NCBI RefSeq assembly: GCF_905475395.1
Contig: NC_058338.1
Span: 44,799,935-44,863,934, forward strand
Length of the DNA stretch: 64,000 nucleotides
Reading direction: 5' to 3'
Source of the DNA: Chrysoperla carnea
Taxonomy: Eukaryota > Arthropoda > Insecta > Neuroptera > Chrysopidae
Shown: piece by piece, positions 8,806-64,000 of the stretch
Layout: each line of letters opens with the position of its first letter
How positions within the stretch are numbered: position 1 is the first letter of the stretch
Program-made: the position numbers and the translations under genes
Notes under the pieces: model-generated
The model's database searches: none
Seen by the model: the letters and a program-made list of their open reading frames with translations, nothing else
Told to the model about the DNA's origin: nothing

Positions 8806-45772
<36,967 letters not shown>

Positions 45773-52216: not shown

Positions 52217-52469
52217 TGTATAAACAAATGGCGCACTATTGACCACATCGATTGCACTTATTTTTTACAACCCTTGAGCCAATATTATTCATGTATATAG
52301 ATAATAACATTTTAGAAGTATAATAGGGAAGGATATTCGGATTATAATTTCATTCCAAATTTAGAAACGTGGAATGCCCAAATCCGACACCGTTAATTAC
52401 TTATAAAAAAAATGTATAAACAAATGCAATTTTTCGTATTTCCAGTTTGCGTTTCTAACCTAATTTGCG

Positions 52470-53050
52470 CCCCCACGGGTAAACAGTGATGTTAACGAAA
52501 AAATGTTTCAAACAAAACTTGTTTATTTTTTTATATTTTATACATTTAAACTTTTGTTCTACCTCTAACGGTTTAAAAGATGGGTTCTACGGATCCAAGA
52601 CCCAATTGACCTATATTGCTCATTTACGAACTTGACCTTCCTTTTTACGTCCTAAACATGCTGTAAAAATTTCAGGTTGATATCTCTTAAAAAAGAAGAT
52701 GCACAATTAAAAAACTATTTGCAAAAAACTCACATTTACAAAAAGAAACTCGTGAACAAAATTTTTACTTTGAACGCGAATAACTTTTTTACTATCAATC
52801 GTAGCGTGTACTTTGAAATAAAGATAAAACGCAAACAAGTCAAAGGATATCAAAATCATCAAATTTGAATCAATAGAACGCAAGATATAGGCCAAAACGT
52901 AAAAAAAGTCACTTTCCAAGATGGCGGCAAAAGGGTTAATTTTCCGAATAGGCAAAATCAGTTTTAAAGTCTCAAAACAACCTCCTTTATTGAAGAATGA
53001 ATAAAAACCTAGCGCCAAAACTTTTGGATCAATCCGTAAATGCATTAGAC
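52470..53050 (-). repeat. Dispersed repeat family E, inverted copy
   Basis: 'cacgggtaaacagtgatgtt', 'caagacccaattgacctata' and 'catttacgaacttgacctt' are the reverse complement of the copy at 3548-3768. Downstream text to ~53040 ('tatctcttaaaaaagaagat', 'ccaagatggcggcaaaaggg') appears to continue the same element. The 112-codon minus-strand frame at 52707-53045 lies wholly within it. Confidence 0.55.
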
Positions 53051-53090
53051 TATAACGTATATTACGAATTCCCTGTTATTATAGTATAGT

Positions 53091-53103
53091 GTTGCTAGGT
53101 AAC
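53091..53103 (+). promoter_or_regulatory. RFX X-box motif upstream of B9D2-tectonic
   Basis: GTTGCTAGGTAAC fits the X-box consensus RYYNYY-N(1-3)-RRNRAC with a 1-bp spacer at every constrained position. It is an imperfect inverted repeat (GTTGC/GTAAC). RFX factors use this site to drive ciliary genes, and it lies 185 bp before the B9D2 start codon, the usual distance. A TATA-like 'gtatataaaa' follows at 53105. Binding is inferred, not shown. Confidence 0.7.
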
Positions 53104-53288
53104 CGTATATAAAATGAAAACAATAACAAATTATTTAAGTATATTATTTTAAATTAGTAGTCGTTAATGACCTCGCTGTTAAAAAGCGACTTTAAATAAA
53201 TAAATAATAATAATATTTTAAATTACCAAAAGAGAAGTGATAAACTTATAACAGTGTGCTTACAATGAGTTAAAAGAGTTAACGATCA

Positions 53289-54838
53289 ATGGGTGAAGTA
53301 CATATTATTGGACAAATTTGTGGAGCATATCAATTTTTAGAAACAAATTTATTTTGTAAATGGTCTATAGAAACTGGTAAGTGATCTTTAATACTTTGTA
53401 GGAACAATTTTTATGATGCGAAATATTTTAAACATATTTAATAGGATCTGGATGGAAATTGTTATCGGGTCCAATACAAGGACAAACATCTGTTAGTCGA
53501 TCAAATTATAGAAAAGCTAGTTATTGGGGATATCCAATTGATGTACATTTTGTATCAAAAACTATAAAAGGTATGATTGGAAAAATTCGTATATTTTAGT
53601 ATAGAAGCATTATATGACACAAGTTCATACTAACGGGGATCTTAGTCGAACATCATGGGTTCTTGAGAAATATGTAAAAAGGGAATAAAAGGCGGTTTAA
53701 CGTAACTAGACCCTGAGAAAAACAAAGACACGCCTTTATCACTTAGCGGCCACCCTTAAAATTAGGGTAAAACCTCAAACAAATAAAATGGAGAGCATAC
53801 TGGCAACGTAAAAAAAATTTCCTCGACTAGGGTAGAATAATTGTTCAAGCCAGAATTTTAAATTTCGCCTCAGAAAAAATGAAAAAGAAAATACAGTGAT
53901 AGGAAAAAAAAGACAAACCGAATTTCAGCTTTTTCGCCATTACTAGACTAATGCAAAAATTTTTTGGAAACAATATGCTTGGATCTCGGATTATAGAAAA
54001 GGCATATTGCATGGATTTGTTACAAACATTGAAGTGTCCCAAAGTTTAAGGTAGTTCTTTCTCTGCAATCCATTATAAAATTATTGGCTTATTACCCATT
54101 CTATTTTTACTGCTTACTGTAGAGCACACTACTACAATAAAATAAAATACAGTTAATACACACATACACCCCTCCATTTAAAATAATAATATAAATGTAA
54201 TATTTAATTTAATATTTTAGGGAAACTAAACGGTGAATAATTTTATTTTTTATGATTCTACGCTTCTCCTATGCTACGTGTGTTAAAAATGACATTTCTA
54301 ATTGCAATTATCTCATGTTAGGCGCATTAAATTGATTACTTATATTAAAAGTTTTGAGATTTCTTAACATTTTGTGGCGTGACCCAAATATCTTAAATTG
54401 TTAAATAAATATGCAACTTGTTTTACCTGTGAGTAATTTTACAATTTTTTTTTACAGGGTGGCCAAAAATCAATTTACATATCCATCATTTTGATTCCTA
54501 TGGACGTATACACTCATTTGGATACGGCCAATTACATCTACCTACATCTCCAGGTCATCACGAATTAACTTGTTATATTTGGCGACCCATAGGAACAATT
54601 TTTCAAAGAGTAATACAATTTTTCTTAGGTAATAAAACCATTATATCTTGGTGATAGGAATATATCAAACAAATGAAACAATAAATTTTTAGGTGGATCT
54701 CCACAATTATCGGATCCAAACAGTATTGGATCACCAACCGATCGTTATCAGTTAAACACAGAATCTATGGGAATAGTTAAATTAGAATTATATATTGTAT
54801 TTCGTAATTATCAAGAATTTGGGGTTGAATATAAATAA
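53289..54838 (+). CDS. B9d2: B9 domain-containing protein 2 (B9D2), 4 exons, 176 aa
   Basis: Transition-zone component of the MKS module at the base of cilia, where it works with B9D1, MKS1, tectonics and CC2D2A in gating membrane proteins. Exons 53289-53376, 53445-53570, 54458-54628 and 54693-54838 are all GT-AG and all phase 1. They give 176 residues, against 175 in human B9D2. The whole protein is one C2-like B9 domain. Recognisable segments: [38 protein letters not shown], the [13 protein letters not shown] strand, [40 protein letters not shown] and the C-terminal [11 protein letters not shown]. The start is the ATG giving the conserved N-terminus; a 2-codon uORF (53264-53272) precedes it. 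An X-box lies upstream, and tectonic starts 2 nt after the stop. Confidence 0.96.
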
Positions 54839-54839
54839 A
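54834..54839 (+). promoter_or_regulatory. AATAAA hexamer at the B9D2/tectonic junction
   Basis: AATAAA overlaps the B9D2 stop codon (54836-54838) and ends one base before the 2-nt gap is complete. If used, cleavage would fall inside tectonic exon 1 and give a B9D2-only mRNA, offering a choice between monocistronic and bicistronic transcripts. AATAAA is frequent by chance in this AT-rich DNA. Confidence 0.3.
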
Positions 54840-54840
54840 A

Positions 54841-57800
54841 ATGATGGTCTATTTTTTTATAATTATTGGATTCAAAATGGTCCAAAATTTGGAAGATATG
54901 ACAATAAACTCCACAGATTATAATGTTACGAATTCGTCATGCGACGAAGATAATTGTACAACTGTTGATCCACAAACTACAATTATCATAGAAAATACCG
55001 AACGTACTACACTAAATACCACGGAAATTCCAAATGTAACCACGACAATTAGTCCACAAAATGATACAAAATCACCAGTTTCGAATACGACAAAAAAAAA
55101 ACATTCTTTGTTTCGCCGAAAATCTTCCTGTGATTGTGATCTTATGGTAAGTTTTTTTAATTAATTTGAATTAAGAATGAATGAATATTTTTGAAAAAAA
55201 TATTTTTCTTATGATACGAATACTGGAAATTTTTTCGGGAGCTGAATTTTGGATTTTTTTTAATCGAAAATAGGTACGTTTTATATCTGAGACCGGTTGC
55301 GTTAACTAACGCGGATTAAATTTAATAGAATTAAATTAAATTTGCTACAACTCTTGCCTAAAACTTTTTCCATATTTTCGAGAAAATTGGAGGTAATAAT
55401 TTTGTTTACGTTTATGCAATACTGCCTGAGATGCAGGCAAAGATAATGAGAGATTCGAGTGTTTGAGGGCCTTAAACATAGAAATGAACTATAGGGTAAT
55501 TTTATCCATGTCCTCTGCGATTCTCTTTCAAATTAATGCAAATTCTGATTGATCTATATTATATGTTATTTTATGTTATTTTTTAACTTATAAATACTTT
55601 TTTTCTAGGATCAGTATTGTGATTTAAATTGTTGTTGCGACAGTGAATGCTCCGAAGAACATTTCAATTTATTTTCAAAATGCATGGAGCCGGTTTCAAA
55701 TCAAAAGTCGCGATTAAACTATTGTACCACAGAGAATTGGATATGGAAAAATAATACAGAAAGTAAAATAGAAATTACATCAAATGGGTTATTTTGTATT
55801 TATAAGGATAATTTACCGCCAACCGTATTTTATGGTCAATCATATGTAAGAAATGGTTTTTGTAACATTTATGTAAAAATATACGGCTAGTAAATGCTTC
55901 AACAAATTTTTCATATTGTAATAATGATTTGGAAAACAATTTTAATAAATCGAAAATTCATCGCATGCATGGGAAATTAAAAAATAACTTTAATTTCATA
56001 TTCAATCTGATTTAAACCTATTCAAGAATTTAAAATTGAATTAAAGGAAAGACATCGGAAACTAAATCATTCTAAAACAAACTAACCCAAAATTTTAAAT
56101 AGACTAAATAAACAAATAAAATTAGTTTCCATTTATTTCGATTCAAGTCCAATTTCACTAAATCTATGGGACTCATTCACGAAGGAAAAATTTCAAAGAT
56201 TAATTAGAGATTCTTTATTTTAGAAAATAAATAGCCCTAAAGAAATTTTAGATTTGACAAATAGAAACAATAAATGGGTAAGAAAAGGTTTGGAACAAAT
56301 ACCAAATGATATACAAATCATGTTAAAAGATAAATATCGGCATGGGTCATCAATTTTATGCGTTGAAAATGGAACTATCAACTTTTTAGGTAACCAAATT
56401 TTTTTTTTACTGGGAACTCTTTTACTTAAATATGCTAAATAGTGTATCAAATGCTAATTTTGAAAGGTCAAAATGTTAACAGCCTAATGTAGAGGCATCC
56501 CTGATAAAAAAATCCGATTCAATTTCGATTCAAATTTTTTTCCAATTGGATCCTAGTCATTCCTATTGGTTGAATTGAAAATTTCCGATTCATTAATCGG
56601 ACTTTTTTTATCAATGATACCTTTGTTCCTATTTTAACATATCTTTTCATTGTTTAAAGATGTTGAAATGAGAATAATTCACAAATGTTATTTAAAAAAT
56701 CGTACCCCGGCAGTGCAAACTAATCAAATTTATATACTTCAAATATTAAATGTTTTAATTTTTAGAATTACCAATAAATATCGTTACAAATGTTTGTAAT
56801 TCAAAAATAAAAATTTTATTTTTAAAAAACTTTCAATCTACATGTGATGTAAATTGCAATGCAAAAGATCAAACTATTTCATCGATATATTATCAGAAAA
56901 TTAAAAATAAATATTTAATTTCGTCTCCAGAATTATTTAATACAACATGGTTGGAAAATATGTCGGTAAAATCATTTTCTAGTATTTTTAATTTAAACGT
57001 AATATGGAAATTGAATTGAGAATTCGCTGATCCAAGTATGCCTTAAATATTAATAACGAATTTAGAAGCTTATATCTTATTGCTATTATCTCGCACATTC
57101 TCAAGAGAAAATAAATCACTTAAAATTCAAATGACGAAGAAAGTCACTGAATTTTCTATTTTAAGGGGGGGGGGGGGGGGGAAGATTTGCTATTTGAAAA
57201 TCACAATTGACAGGAACTGTAAGGTCCCGTTACTTTAGTCCTCAAAGTCTATTATTTCTATTACCATAGCTGCAAAAGTAACAAATTAGACTAAATTTAC
57301 ATAAGTGAGAACAAATTTTCTAGTTCAGTTAACACTCTCTTATCCTAAAATTGAACTTTATGTCGAATAAGAGTTCGCCGATTACTACACTCATAGTATA
57401 AGGTGCCTTAGTCCTTCGGGAGCTACAAGCGTCAGAAATTTCACACATACCTTCTCGAATTAGTGTCAAATTCGTTGAATTTTCCGAAAAAATGATTCAC
57501 GTTTTGCGGATACACATGTTCCGTATACCAATATCAACGTAAACTTATATGGCGTAAGCCCCTGAATTATGAGCATTTATTCAATAACACCCTGTACATA
57601 CTATAATGTTTGATTCTCCGATTGACTACCAGTGGATAGATAATTGGGTTGGCTTCAAATACAATTTTCAACTACCTATTATTGATTTCAAAAATTTTCA
57701 TTCTTTAAAAGAAAATGTCTTTCTTTTCTAGCAATGTCCAAAAAATATTTGTATTCCATTTACATCATACATATGTGATGATTACTTCAAGAATTGTTTC

Positions 57801-58877
57801 ACCTACAGTGAAAAAAATGTGACACGAGTCAAATTCGAATTAATTGTACATAAAATTAAATACGTAATTTTTTATAACGTGACTTTCGGCGGAATTACCA
57901 ATATGCGTGTCGAAATAACAGTGAAAAATCCAAAAATAATTGACAATCCATTTAAGCAACTGTATACAGTTAATTTTTTGGAAGAAAATAATACGGTAAT
58001 AGATTATTCAATAATGCGTAGTGGAAATCCAGGATATTTACAAGGATATCCAATTTTAATTGGTGAACTAAAAAGCTATGCATTATTAAATGAAACATAC
58101 TTACCAGAATTTGAAAAATTTATAAGTAAGATTGAAAAAAATTTCTTACTCTTACCACAAAATGTAAATGGTTTTTGTATTCGGGATGACTTTCATTACA
58201 CTACCGTTAAATTCGGGACAAATTTAAACTCAAAATGTAAGTTAAATGTTGACATAAATTATAAAAATACTTCAGAAATTTGTATGAAAATTCAAGAACA
58301 AATTTGGGAAATATGGACAATATATAACACAACCGCAAAAACCTTTAAGTACAATAAATACTTTGGAGTTTATGGAAATGCAAATCGTTCCAATCTAAAC
58401 GAATGGAAAACTGTTTTATATGACAACACACCTTTACTCACTCAACAAAATACTGATTCAGGGGAAATAAAATGTTTTTCATTAGTTACAACATTACAAA
58501 TAGAAATTTTATACGAACGTATACCGCAGAAAATGGACACAAAACGTAGTGTAAAAATTTTAGCAATTTATTATAATTTTTTAACAACGGAAGACTATGA
58601 AATGAAACAAATCAAGAGTGGAGGAAATATTCATATTGAATTAAAATCAAATGTAATGTTTTACGATTTAACTAATTATCATTACGATCAATTGAAATTT
58701 GCTTCAGCACCAACATTTGATTTACATTTACCAAATGATTTTTTCTATCCATTTTTATTAAATTCTGGACATCGAATCTTCACTAATCAAATATTTATTA
58801 TTTATTATTTGGCAATAGCTTGTTCAATACCAAATATTCATAAAAATTATTTTTGTACTACTAAATTGATAGAATAA
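54841..58877 (+). CDS. Tctn: Tectonic, 5 exons, 684 aa
   Basis: Secreted or membrane-tethered MKS/transition-zone protein, partner of B9 proteins. Exons: 54841-55146, 55609-55845, 56224-56389, 56766-56965, 57732-58877; frames join exactly. The N-terminus MMVYFFIIIGFKM is a short hydrophobic leader, followed by a Thr/Asn-rich region. The tectonic Cys motif spans exons 1-2: CDCDLMDQYCDLNCCCDSEC (residues ~99-118). The hallmark RSGNPGYLQGYPILIG lies in exon 5. A weakly hydrophobic C-terminus (QIFIIYYLAIAC) may act as membrane anchor. The start cannot lie upstream in unspliced RNA: a stop in this frame sits at 54832-54834 and the B9D2 stop is 2 nt before the ATG. Lys/Asn/Phe-rich and fast evolving. 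Insects usually have a single tectonic. Confidence 0.92.
57165..57181 (+). repeat. 17-bp poly-G run in tectonic intron 4
   Basis: Seventeen consecutive G, exceptional in sequence this AT-rich. It lies in the 766-bp intron 56966-57731. It may be a real G tract or have an assembly length error. Confidence 0.95.
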
Positions 58878-58878
58878 A
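58873..58878 (+). terminator. AATAAA overlapping the tectonic stop codon
   Basis: The poly(A) hexamer AATAAA includes the TAA stop at 58875-58877. If it is the signal used, the 3' UTR would be only ~10-30 nt. Later AT-rich sequence offers alternatives. Confidence 0.35.
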
Positions 58879-60790
58879 CCTTTTTTAAAATTATTTATGT
58901 CGTAAGTTTTAAATTCCAAATTGGAGTGAATGACCAACATTATTTTCATAGATTTAACCAAGTTTTTTAAATGCAATTTAACCATGAAGAATGTTAAATA
59001 ATTTGTGCCCTTGTCTATTTTGGACTGTAAACAAATAGCATTTGGGCGCTAAAAAATCGAAAATTATGCCAAAGGATTTTTATGGCCCCTGTATATATGA
59101 TATATGATAAATATATCAAGAATTAATAATTTTAGCCCCAAGTTTGTAACGGTTTTGGTATAGGTTCATAAATCACCAAATTAGTCCATTTCCGTTTGTC
59201 CTTCCGTCTGTCAGCACGATACCTCAAAAACGAAAAGAGATATCGAACTGAAATTTGTATTGCGAGCTGAGGACGTCAAAAATGAGGCAGAGTTAATCTA
59301 TTGGGCCTTAAATGCAATAAATGTTCCTTAAAAAAAATAAACACTTTTCAAACAAAAGTTTTCAAACAAATATGTCATTGTGTTCCCGTAAATTAGGGCA
59401 ACACGTTGGTGTCCTTTTTCTCCACAACTATAAAAAATATAGAGAGTTGAAAATTTGTAGGTGGCTTCAACTAGTAAGTCTTGTTAAAGATGGAAAAAAA
59501 ACTATAACAATTGGCCGAGAAAAGCCCGCCATTAGAGGTTGGTTTTTTAAACCTTGTAATTTATTAAAAATACTGCAAACATTGATTATTAATACAGTCA
59601 ATTGTTAATTTTCACTTGTTTTTGTTTAAAATGGCACAAAAAACACAAAATTATATTTTATTAAAAAAACTATTTTTAAGCTGTTGCAGGTTCTGGCTTT
59701 TTTACTCTTCAAGGACTTCTAGGTTTTTACTCTTCATCTGTTTTATTTAACGCTGAATTTTCGAGAATGTTAACATGTCCAAATGATATTTGCTTATAGT
59801 TCTTAATTCTTTCTGAATATCTTATCATACCAAAATTCATAGAAAAAATGGGTAAATTCATCGAAATATAAGCATCGGGTCCGTTTACAATCAATAATTT
59901 CAGAAAGTTTGTTCAAAAGTTATTTTTCATGTTGAAAGCTCAAGGTTATAAACGTTAGTATAAACGCTTAAATAGACTTTTGCTCACAGTGCCACTATTG
60001 GCCAGCCTAATACCCTTGCAGACAAACCCGTTTGAAGTGTTCCTTTTGAAGTTAAAAACTTTCTGGACAGCGAAAACAGCGAAAAAATAAAGGCGACAGG
60101 TTGTAAATAAACTACAACAGTTTGTACGTGTTTATTCGCACAAAGACAAACAGCTAAATTGCCAATTTTTGTCCAATAATAACTGTGCCAAATTTACTTG
60201 TCACGTGAAAATGGTAATTGAGTCAATTATTTATAGTCGTTATTTATTACTGAATGCAATCACAGTATACAATATTGTATTAGCTGGATCGAAGCTTAAC
60301 GAAAAGATTATAATCCATTATATTTAAATGCAAAATAAAATGAAATATTTGTATTTTTCGTAAAATTATATTGATTTGCGATTTTACATTCGAGCTTATG
60401 GTCGTAAATATAAATAACATAATTTTACACTATATTCAAACACTTTTTTTTATTTTACACCTATGATTTATAAACTTCAACTTTTTGAGATAAATGGATA
60501 TAGTTTGCTCTTTTCTTGAAATAATACTTTTTGAAACTTAATATCTAAAGAATTTTTTTAACTAAAATTATCAAGAGCACTGGTAGTAATCACAGATTTA
60601 CAGAGGATTACACATTTCACATTTTGGGAGGTCAGCAAATTGAAGATCTTATTATTTCAAGACGTATTAATTTTATTTAATTTTTATTTATAAATGCGAA
60701 AGTTAATTAACCTAGTTAATTTAAACTTAAAATTAAATATTATTTTAATTTGTATATGCATTATTTTTTTCAAAATAAAAATTTCGTAAT
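58878..60790. other. Convergent intergenic region between tectonic and FAM98
   Basis: About 2 kb between two genes pointing at each other. It holds the family E copy at 59080-59560 and otherwise AT-rich sequence with no gene. The 95-codon frame at 59321-59608 lies almost wholly within the repeat. Confidence 0.6.
59080..59560 (+). repeat. Dispersed repeat family E copy
   Basis: Reads 'tatatatgatatatgataaa', 'aagtttgtaacggttttggt', 'ctgtcagcacgatacctcaa', 'aaacgaaaagagatatcgaa', then 'aaataaacacttttcaaaca' and 'gtaggtggcttcaactagta'. The reverse complement of the first half is at 63430-63640. Related text is at 39890-40260, and the second half resembles 30650-31230. Confidence 0.6.
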
Positions 60791-60965: not shown

Positions 60966-62999
60966 TTAACGATAACCACCACGATTATAATTTGATCGGC
61001 CACCGCCCCCACCTCCGCGCCCACCGCCACCTCTATTATAATTACTATATTCCTGATTACGCGAACTATCTTGAACGTATTGATCAGCGTACGAACCGGA
61101 AGTTGGTTGGTTATATGTATTGTAAGTTCCTCCACTACCACCTCGATTACCACCATAACTTTGCCCACGATTTCCACCTCCACCACCACCGTATCCTCCT
61201 TGATTTCCTCCACCATATCCGCCTTGATTACCACCTCCATATCCACTTTGACCTCCACGATTTCCTCCTTGATTTCCCCCACCATAACCACCTTGATTGC
61301 TTCCACCATAACCTCCTTGATTTCCTCCACTATAGCCTCCTTGATTTCCACCACCATATCCTCCTTGGTTACCACCACCGTAACCTCCTTGGTTTCCACT
61401 TCCTCGGCCTCCACCTCCACGACCACCCCCGCCACCCCCTCGACCGCCTCCTCCAGTGTTACGCTGTTGCCATGAAGGCATTTCTGGTGGAGGAGGTTCT
61501 TGTTCGTTAGGACGACCTCCTCGATCAGGAACCTAAAAAAATATATAATATTTGTAGCGTTCAAATAATAAAAAAAGATTGGGATTGAGACTGTATTTGC
61601 TTAACAAAAATGAAATTTAGAATAATGGCTTTGCAGTCAGCAGGCGCCACTCTCTAAAATATGGTACCTCATTGTAAATTGTGAACCAGGTAGCCAACAA
61701 TCTACGGCAGTGGCAGCCATAAACATCCGTACGATTACATGACAGACAACTTTGACTATAGCCAGAGCCAGGCTTGACCCAATGTGGCTGCATTTACCTC
61801 CGCATCTTTATAGACGCAGTCAGGCAAAGTAATTGTCATTCTGAAAAAACATAAAATCATGCGCATCCATCTCCCTAAACTGTTATAGCAAATCTTCGTA
61901 TGGTAGCAAAACTTATCAGAAAGCTAGCTAATATTCTTTTTTGGCATATTATTTACGTTCATGCTACCAAAGTATGAATTTTAGATAGATTCTAGCAGCT
62001 AAATTTATATTTTTTAGCAAGGAACTTTAATGCGTAATATATTTATATATTTTAAATACTTACACTTCCAATCATCACTTTATTGATCGACGTTTGAGTA
62101 TTTTTTCGTACTGAAGCACTACTTGTCTTTTCTATAATTGTAATATCATCACGTGCCGCTAGCAAATCACTAATATCAACATCGGGTATTGTAGTCATTG
62201 AAGCGGCATGTTTCTTATAAATATCTTGAATCGTAGCTTCTTTACCTTTCATTCGATCTGACCACTAGAAGAATGTAATTAACAAATTAATCATTATAAA
62301 TCTGGGAAAAGAACATCTTATGAAAAATGAATTTCGAGCAAAACCTGCAGACGGCCAATAAAGAATACTGTTGAATCATGATGAAGCGTTTGCGTGTGTA
62401 AGACCGTCAAAAATTATCATAATTGTGGAACAACGATTACTAGATATTTCCCAACATTAACGGTTAAAACTGTGAAATAAACGGTTAAAACTATTAAAAA
62501 AAAAGTCATGCATGGCAGATATGGTAAATGGCAATAGAAAAAGAAAAACTTACTGAAAAACACATAAATCTGCCGATGAATGGCTTCAATTGTACAGAAA
62601 ATCAATATTATAGTACCCGCACCTGTATAAGTAACTGTTGTCATTCTATAGCACAGCTCTTTACATAGAAATTCATTTTTCCCAAAAGTTTACGTGAACC
62701 TAACTTACTTGAAAACCTTGAATGGTCACATCTAGACGTTTAACTAACATTTCACGTCTTATCGTATACTCATCGTGTAATTTTTGTTGTAATAAAGTTA
62801 AACTATCCCATTGTTTCTCCGATAAATGGCCATTAAATGCTGGTTTGCCAATTAAATCATTTCTACATTTACTAAGCGAATCACGTACTTTTGTTTCAAC
62901 TTTTTGAAACAATTGTGCTGCTGTTATATTCGGAGGAGGTTTATTAAATTGTAATGCAACCAATAAATTTTTTAAATCTCTTGCTGTATCAGTTTCATG
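60966..62999 (-). CDS. FAM98 family protein, 3' exons (partial at right edge)
   Basis: FAM98 proteins belong to the RTCB/DDX1 tRNA-splicing ligase complex and bind RNA. Three exons on the minus strand: 62999-62709, 62264-62064 and 61532-60966 (stop TAA at 60968-60966), all phase 0, giving 352 residues. Exon order and text follow FAM98: KPPPNITAAQLFQKVETK, REMLVKRLDVTIQGFQ joined to WSDRMKGKEATIQDIYKKHA, DISDLLAARDDITIIEKTSS, INKVMIGS joined to VPDRGGRPNEQEPPPPEMPS, then a Gly/Arg/Asn/Gln/Tyr-rich tail ending SNYNRGGYR. The N-terminal calponin-homology-like part must lie upstream, beyond 63000 or outside the window; I found no further exon in 63001-64000. Insects usually have one FAM98 gene, so A/B/C naming is not applied. 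Confidence 0.92.
61185..61400 (-). repeat. NQGGY-type coding repeats in the FAM98 tail
   Basis: About nine imperfect units of GGNQGGYGG (roughly 21-24 bp each) within the last FAM98 exon, with flanking RGG runs. This is a low-complexity RNA-binding/condensate-type tail. The open frames on the opposite strand and in the other minus frame here are by-products of the repeat. Confidence 0.85.
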
Positions 63000-63000
63000 C

Positions 63001-64000
63001 TGAAAAGTAAAAAATAAGTTTATTTGAAATTCTAGACTTAATATTTAAATATTAAGAACTTTGGTAAATTTAGTCAAGGGGCCCGTGCACAAATCAAATA
63101 CAAGAGGACGTTCGGTCACTTTTTCTAAAACTTCAGGAAAGGCAATTTAATTTTTTCTAAACAAAAGTCTCCATAAGCAAAAAGTTTTAAGTTCAAACAT
63201 AAGCAATAAAACAGGCCTGAAGAAACTTTTGTCTGAGGTTAAATATTCGCCTGAGGAGAAATGGAAAATTTTTATTATATTTCCAAAAGCCGATTCAACG
63301 AAACCCCATAATAGGGTGTACGGAAAAAAAATTTATAACCAACATAAAACTTTTCGCAGCCCAAATGAGATGGGGAATTTATGATTTTAAAATTGAATAA
63401 TAATCTTTCAGTGTCTTTTCTTCTCCATTAGCCGAAAGAAACTATAAAAACTTCGGCTTGACATCTCTTTTCGTTTTGAAGTTATCGTGGCGCCAGACGG
63501 ACAGACAACCGAAAATGGCATAATCAAGTGATTTTATGAAGACCTATAGCAAAATTTTGTTTGTAGGATCAATATTTTTAAGCGTTACAAACTTGGGACT
63601 AAACTTAGTATACCTTGATATATATTATATATACATGGTATAATAATGAGTTATGGTGGATTTTTTAAGAATTTGTTGAACTGGCCATATGTATTACACA
63701 AACGATCCCCAACATAAAATTACCCATTTTTCTATTGGCTTTTCTCAGTTTCTATTTTATAAAATATAAATTTATTAGCTTCTGGCATATCAAAAAAATA
63801 ATAATTTTACATTTCTCATAGAACTTGAAAAATTTTTAATGAATATAAAATATCGAAGTTTTGTGATTTTTAAAGCAACAAATGGTTAGATAATAGTAAA
63901 ACATAATTATTAAAATCGTGGATTTTTAATTTAATGTTTCTACTCTCTTTGTAACGTCCCAAATCAGAAAAATATCCATATTTTGAATCATCTTTCAATT
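63001..64000. other. FAM98 upstream intron, with a family E copy
   Basis: Sequence 5' of the FAM98 exon (acceptor on the minus strand at 63000-63001), presumably an intron that continues beyond the window. The family E repeat occupies about 63100-63640, including 'acatctcttttcgttttgaa', 'gacggacagacaaccgaaaa', 'aagcgttacaaacttgggac' and 'ttgatatatattatatatac'. No exon was recognised. Confidence 0.55.

Follow-up and report, generated by a model that had tools for sequence, protein, structure and literature searches.

A candidate dicistronic B9D2–tectonic unit in the genome of the lacewing Chrysoperla carnea

Organization of the B9D2–tectonic locus

In the genome of the lacewing Chrysoperla carnea, the genes for B9D2 and tectonic are same-strand (+) neighbors separated by a spacer of two nucleotides (nt), and we describe here their organization as a candidate dicistronic transcription unit. 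The pair lies in a stretch of 64,000 nt (contig NC_058338.1 of assembly GCF_905475395.1, positions 44,799,935 to 44,863,934), hereafter called the window, which has a GC content of approximately 30% and to which all coordinates refer. Both proteins are parts of one ciliary gate, the MKS transition-zone module. In exon models that we predicted from the genomic sequence, B9D2 comprises four exons (53289–54838) encoding a product of 176 amino acids and tectonic five exons (54841–58877) encoding 684 amino acids, all with GT/AG splice ends. The B9D2 stop codon TAA (54836–54838) is followed by the spacer AA and the tectonic ATG (54841–54843).

53289–53376, + strand, B9D2 exon 1, T at position −3 relative to the start codon
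53445–53570, + strand, B9D2 exon 2, from gene model and Pfam
54458–54628, + strand, B9D2 exon 3, from gene model and Pfam
54693–54838, + strand, B9D2 exon 4, holding the stop TAA at 54836–54838
54832–54834, + strand, stop TAA in the tectonic frame, barring an in-frame start further upstream
54834–54839, + strand, AATAAA overlapping the B9D2 stop, which could serve as poly(A) signal for a B9D2-only mRNA
54841–55146, + strand, tectonic exon 1, A at position −3 relative to the start codon
55609–55845, + strand, tectonic exon 2, from gene model and Pfam
56224–56389, + strand, tectonic exon 3, from gene model and Pfam
56766–56965, + strand, tectonic exon 4, from gene model and Pfam
57732–58877, + strand, tectonic exon 5, holding the stop TAA at 58875–58877
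58873–58878, + strand, AATAAA overlapping the tectonic stop, putative poly(A) signal of the whole unit

In both genes an AATAAA hexamer overlaps the stop codon, and both may have very short 3′ untranslated regions.

The first-pass annotation of this DNA had placed the end of the B9D2 stop at 54838 and the tectonic ATG at 54841 on one strand, and both coordinates were confirmed from the sequence; the tectonic-frame stop that it invoked as a block to any upstream start is present as TAA at 54832–54834. Its further claim that readthrough cannot fuse the two products also holds, because they are encoded in different frames, each closed by a stop. An origin of the pair by tandem duplication was rejected as well, B9D2 and tectonic belonging to different Pfam families.

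The predicted identities of both genes are solid. Residues 4–164 of the B9D2 protein match Pfam B9-C2 (E 4.1e-54), and the tectonic protein matches DUF1619_N (E 6.9e-14) and TCTN_DUF1619 (E 7.2e-13). Residues 1–75 of tectonic precede the Pfam match, which begins at residue 76, so its exact start is placed by the open frame and by a short hydrophobic N-terminus (MMVYFFIIIGF) and not by homology. No AG dinucleotide occurs between the tectonic-frame stop and the tectonic ATG; six occur within tectonic exon 1, so that a separate leader could still be spliced into this exon. Comparison with solved structures gave no match for tectonic at E 0.1 and two weak matches for B9D2 (E 0.14), which we attribute to chance. 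In the lacewing genome, B9 matches were found at three loci, namely B9D2 and two genes on contigs C3 and C5 that we take, from their translations, to be B9D1-like and MKS1-like, respectively; the first B9D1 exon by itself stayed under the Pfam cut-off (17.3 vs 27 bits). Relatives of B9D2 were confirmed in none of 34 pattern stretches from bacterial and archaeal contigs and in none of four from viral contigs.

AUG contexts in the first cistron

In the spliced sequence, position −3 is T or C at the B9D2 start AUG and at each of its five internal AUGs (one in frame, four out of frame). The tectonic AUG has A at this position and is the first AUG in a purine context counting from the B9D2 start. 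To obtain expected values, synonymous codons were shuffled within each gene, keeping protein and codon usage (20,000 shuffles per run). By this measure B9D2 is poor in internal AUGs (5 observed, 8.2 expected, P 0.013). None of the five has a purine at −3, against an expectation of 3.9 (P 0.0009 and 0.0006 in two runs, values that are partly post hoc and optimistic because the −3 pattern had been noticed before the shuffle test was built).

No such bias was found in tectonic or in the control stretches. Tectonic has 52 AUGs, 31 of them with a purine at −3 (51.3 and 29.2 expected), and none of its 508 sliding windows of 531 nt contains fewer than three purine-context AUGs. Ten other coding stretches, which are untrimmed open frames from ALK, FAM98, MKS1, and B9D1, together gave 80 AUGs, 49 of them in purine contexts (79.4 and 45.5 expected). 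For 36 open frames with lengths of 110 codons or more, a set that includes six of the ten stretches, some overlapping frames, and frames that are not all proven genes, the corresponding counts were 321 and 177 (311.1 and 169.6 expected). Purine-context AUGs were lacking altogether in three of these 36 frames, each expecting at most 0.22, and in none of the 26 expecting at least 2.5.

The first start is thus weak and the second strong (T vs A at −3), and the AUGs inside the first cistron are few and weak, although in-frame AUGs are not wholly absent. From its coding sequence, B9D2 looks permeable to scanning ribosomes.

Candidate promoter elements

Three features precede the B9D2 start:

53091–53103, no strand assigned, X-box (RFX site) GTTGCTAGGTAAC / GTTACCTAGCAAC, a perfect match, 186 bp before the B9D2 ATG
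53106–53113, + strand, TATA-like TATATAAA, directly after the X-box
53265–53273, + strand, two-codon upstream open reading frame (ORF; Met-Ser-stop) with A at −3 and 15 nt between its end and the B9D2 ATG

X-box searches used the consensuses printed by Laurencon (2007; PMC2375033), five restricted forms and a loosest one, in the available part of that paper. All five restricted fly consensuses match the site at 53091, the sole such place within 52289–54841, i.e., from 1 kb upstream of B9D2 through the tectonic start. The strictest, RTNRCC N1-3 RGYAAC, matches nowhere else in the window; the other four restricted forms match 4 to 30 places each, and the loosest form 70 places, including two further weak matches within 52289–54841. 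The minus-strand letters of the site are identical to the X-box listed for fly CG17599 in the consulted part of PMC2375033. Genome-wide, the tight form gave 261 + 240 = 501 strand matches in 559 Mb, palindromic sites being counted twice, and the reversed pattern used as control gave 232 + 222. Since these counts are so close, most genomic matches must be background, and the case for the X-box is one of position: by chance, about 3e-4 tight matches are expected per 300 bp. A restricted-consensus X-box near the start is one mark of an RFX target gene, and B9D2 has such a site at 53091, a candidate RFX site that would be the single, apparently cilia-specific switch ahead of the pair.

The TATA-like TATATAAA would place the transcription start near 53136, but such words are frequent in this DNA (2.3 per kb), which makes the element weak evidence. 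The upstream ORF at 53265 is relevant only if transcription starts upstream of it.

The fly counterpart

The available text of PMC2375033 names fly CG9227 tectonic, also counts it among the Drosophila B9-domain genes, and lists it against worm Y38F2AL.2. It further reports an X-box 119 bp upstream of the CG9227 ATG (146 in D. pseudoobscura) and the loss of the CG9227 reporter in dRfx mutants. The lacewing tectonic protein has no B9 match in Pfam, and we therefore read CG9227 as a joint model that took in both B9D2 and tectonic; the two genes would then be neighbors in the fly as well. Y38F2AL.2, which like CG9227 turned up in a single paper, is presumably worm mksr-2 (B9D2). If CG9227 was such a joint model, the adjacency of B9D2 and tectonic is older than the split between Diptera and Neuroptera. 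The lacewing and fly loci are alike in the tectonic and B9-domain descriptions and in the upstream X-box, to which the fly adds an RFX-dependent reporter; this comparison covers the description published in the available part of PMC2375033.

Consecutive fly identifiers, CG42730 and CG42731, had been given in the first-pass annotation; they would fit CG9227 as a joint model, although a literature search returned no match for them. A further search found no account of B9d2 and tectonic as a dicistronic pair, and the available part of PMC5087661, on the Drosophila transition zone, does not mention "bicistronic," "CG427," or "tctn."

Comparison with known dicistronic systems

B9D2 and tectonic are two complete, non-overlapping coding regions on one strand in close spacing, as in known dicistronic pairs. 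According to the part of PMC4528330 consulted, gaps at exclusively polycistronic fly loci range from −34 to 319 nt, and the lacewing gap of 2 nt falls inside this range. The cited annotation release contains 159 fly dicistronic pairs, few of them known to combine functionally related but dissimilar genes (PMC4528330, same part).

For stoned and Snapin, an AUG-poor first cistron, divergent start contexts, and leaky scanning in reporters have been described (Wall 2005, as summarized in the available parts of PMC3372440 and PMC11892635). The lacewing pair resembles them in the weak first start and the few or weak AUGs of the first cistron; it differs in that the title of Wall (2005) speaks of the absence of in-frame AUGs, whereas B9D2 has one in-frame and four out-of-frame AUGs, and in that stoned and Snapin were reporter-tested, whereas the lacewing pair is known here from sequence. 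The fly genes sloth1 and sloth2, as described in the consulted part of PMC9681215, share a short gap (5 nt), a weak start followed by a strong one, and partnership in one complex; their products are much shorter (79 and 61 amino acids vs 176 for B9D2), and they look like paralogues, whereas B9D2 and tectonic belong to unrelated families. Green algal bicistronic loci also show weak Kozak-like contexts of the ORF1 and internal AUGs and AUG depletion before ORF2, in an unrelated lineage and with unrelated genes (PMC11892635, available part). A weak first start combined with few or weak AUGs in the first cistron is, in the parts of these sources consulted, a published mark of leaky scanning (stoned, Snapin, green algae), of which sloth1 has the weak start.

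The arrangement is rare yet already known in insects, and what the lacewing locus adds is the X-box together with a scanning-permeable first cistron. Among fly nuclear genes, dicistronic ones form an accepted minority class. Nematode operons likewise consist of linked genes under one promoter, but differ in needing spliced-leader trans-splicing, which insects, to our knowledge, do not use.

Proposed expression of the unit and alternatives

B9D2 and tectonic probably constitute one dicistronic transcription unit. The co-transcription proposed in the first-pass annotation gains indirect support from the upstream X-box, from the lack of restricted-consensus sites between the genes, and from the fly CG9227 model. 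That annotation had left the choice between reinitiation and leaky scanning; the AUG contexts now favor the latter, and reinitiation has become less likely after a first cistron of 176 codons. On balance, we favor a ciliary unit in which tectonic is reached mainly by leaky scanning. RFX binding at the 53091–53103 X-box would give rise to a single mRNA with both coding regions. During cap-dependent scanning, a fraction of the ribosomes would initiate at the B9D2 AUG, which is weak (T at −3), and the remainder would bypass this codon as well as the five weak internal AUGs and initiate at the tectonic AUG. A single promoter could in this way supply two MKS-module proteins in a ratio determined by how leaky the B9D2 start is.

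Several points, besides the post hoc element in the shuffle test, weigh against this interpretation. The lacewing evidence is the genomic sequence of one species, and five AUGs remain inside B9D2, including an in-frame one. If transcribed, the upstream AUG at 53265, with A at −3, would intercept scanning ribosomes before they reach B9D2. An unconserved X-box upstream of a single gene's ATG is not predictive of RFX control, as stated in the available part of PMC2375033. The X-box is also not a general rule for these lacewing ciliary genes: B9D1 has no tight X-box in the 5.6 kb upstream that were examined, and the tight X-box of MKS1 lies about 1.3 kb before the first recognized exon, its true first exon not having been found. 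Finally, the AATAAA at the B9D2 stop is followed by a T-rich stretch. This would suit two overlapping monocistronic mRNAs, with B9D2 polyadenylated via the hexamer at 54834 and tectonic transcribed from a promoter within the B9D2 gene (intron 2 or exon 4, for instance). Monocistronic isoforms are common at fly dicistronic loci (for both genes in 45 and for one gene in 69 of the 159; PMC4528330, consulted part), and B9D2-only mRNAs, hence separate or mixed isoforms, could arise here via this signal. We did not accept the hexamer as decisive proof of separate mRNAs, because AATAAA is frequent on this strand of the window (2.5 per kb). The interval from B9D2 to tectonic contains two matches to the loosest X-box form and none to a restricted consensus, although a fly-like tectonic ought to be under RFX control. 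Nor would separate mRNAs lead one to expect a B9D2 that is permeable at its AUGs. We consider this arrangement rather unlikely.

For a dicistronic mRNA, tectonic could also be translated by termination-reinitiation, the ribosome that ends B9D2 staying on the message and restarting two bases on. The 2-nt spacing suits retention of the 40S subunit, and a TGGGA pentamer at 54768–54772, 64–68 nt before the B9D2 stop, is a weak hint in the same direction, given that the 18S-pairing motif 1 of calicivirus reinitiation sites is placed 40–90 nt upstream in the available part of PMC5972666. However, this strand of the 64 kb contains 34 TGGGA pentamers, corresponding to a chance of about 3% in the 40–90 nt zone, and motif 1 alone was examined. 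The same part of PMC5972666 regards reinitiation after long cellular ORFs as presumably very rare, and B9D2 has 176 codons; moreover, reinitiation leaves the weak AUG contexts within B9D2 unexplained, and we judge it unlikely. Internal ribosome entry before tectonic appears very improbable: an Rfam scan of 52600–59600 gave no match at gathering scores, and the RNA folding of the junction is ordinary (220-nt fold, z −1.09 vs dinucleotide shuffles). Among 18 spliced 100-nt windows, one reached z −3.3 against simple shuffles (54906–55005), and it lies in tectonic exon 1, about 65–165 nt past the ATG.

A more far-reaching version of the leaky-scanning model, which we regard as doubtful, holds that the pair is an operon-like unit for the ciliary gate that flies and lacewings have retained from their common ancestor, that the 176-codon B9D2 was selected for transparency to scanning, and that the 53265 ORF may tune the ratio of B9D2 to tectonic. 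After translating this ORF, most ribosomes would not yet be competent to initiate when they reach the B9D2 AUG and would resume at tectonic instead, and initiation-factor levels could adjust the ratio. If the dicistronic model is true, the pair would provide a natural setting in which to ask whether subunit ratios in animals are set by operon-like coupling, and B9D2 knock-outs in such insects may silently alter tectonic.

Neighboring features in the window

Upstream of the pair, 34582–41341 (+ strand) contains receptor tyrosine kinase frames with LDL-receptor-like and glycine-rich regions. The two joined kinase frames, the only ones of this region scanned, match Pfam with E 5.2e-66; we take the gene to be probably the ALK orthologue, a name that, like the non-kinase domains, is our assumption. 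A gene matching DUF2465 (E 1.5e-32), presumably FAM98, lies at 60969–63044 on the − strand, convergent with tectonic; it includes a long glycine-rich frame.

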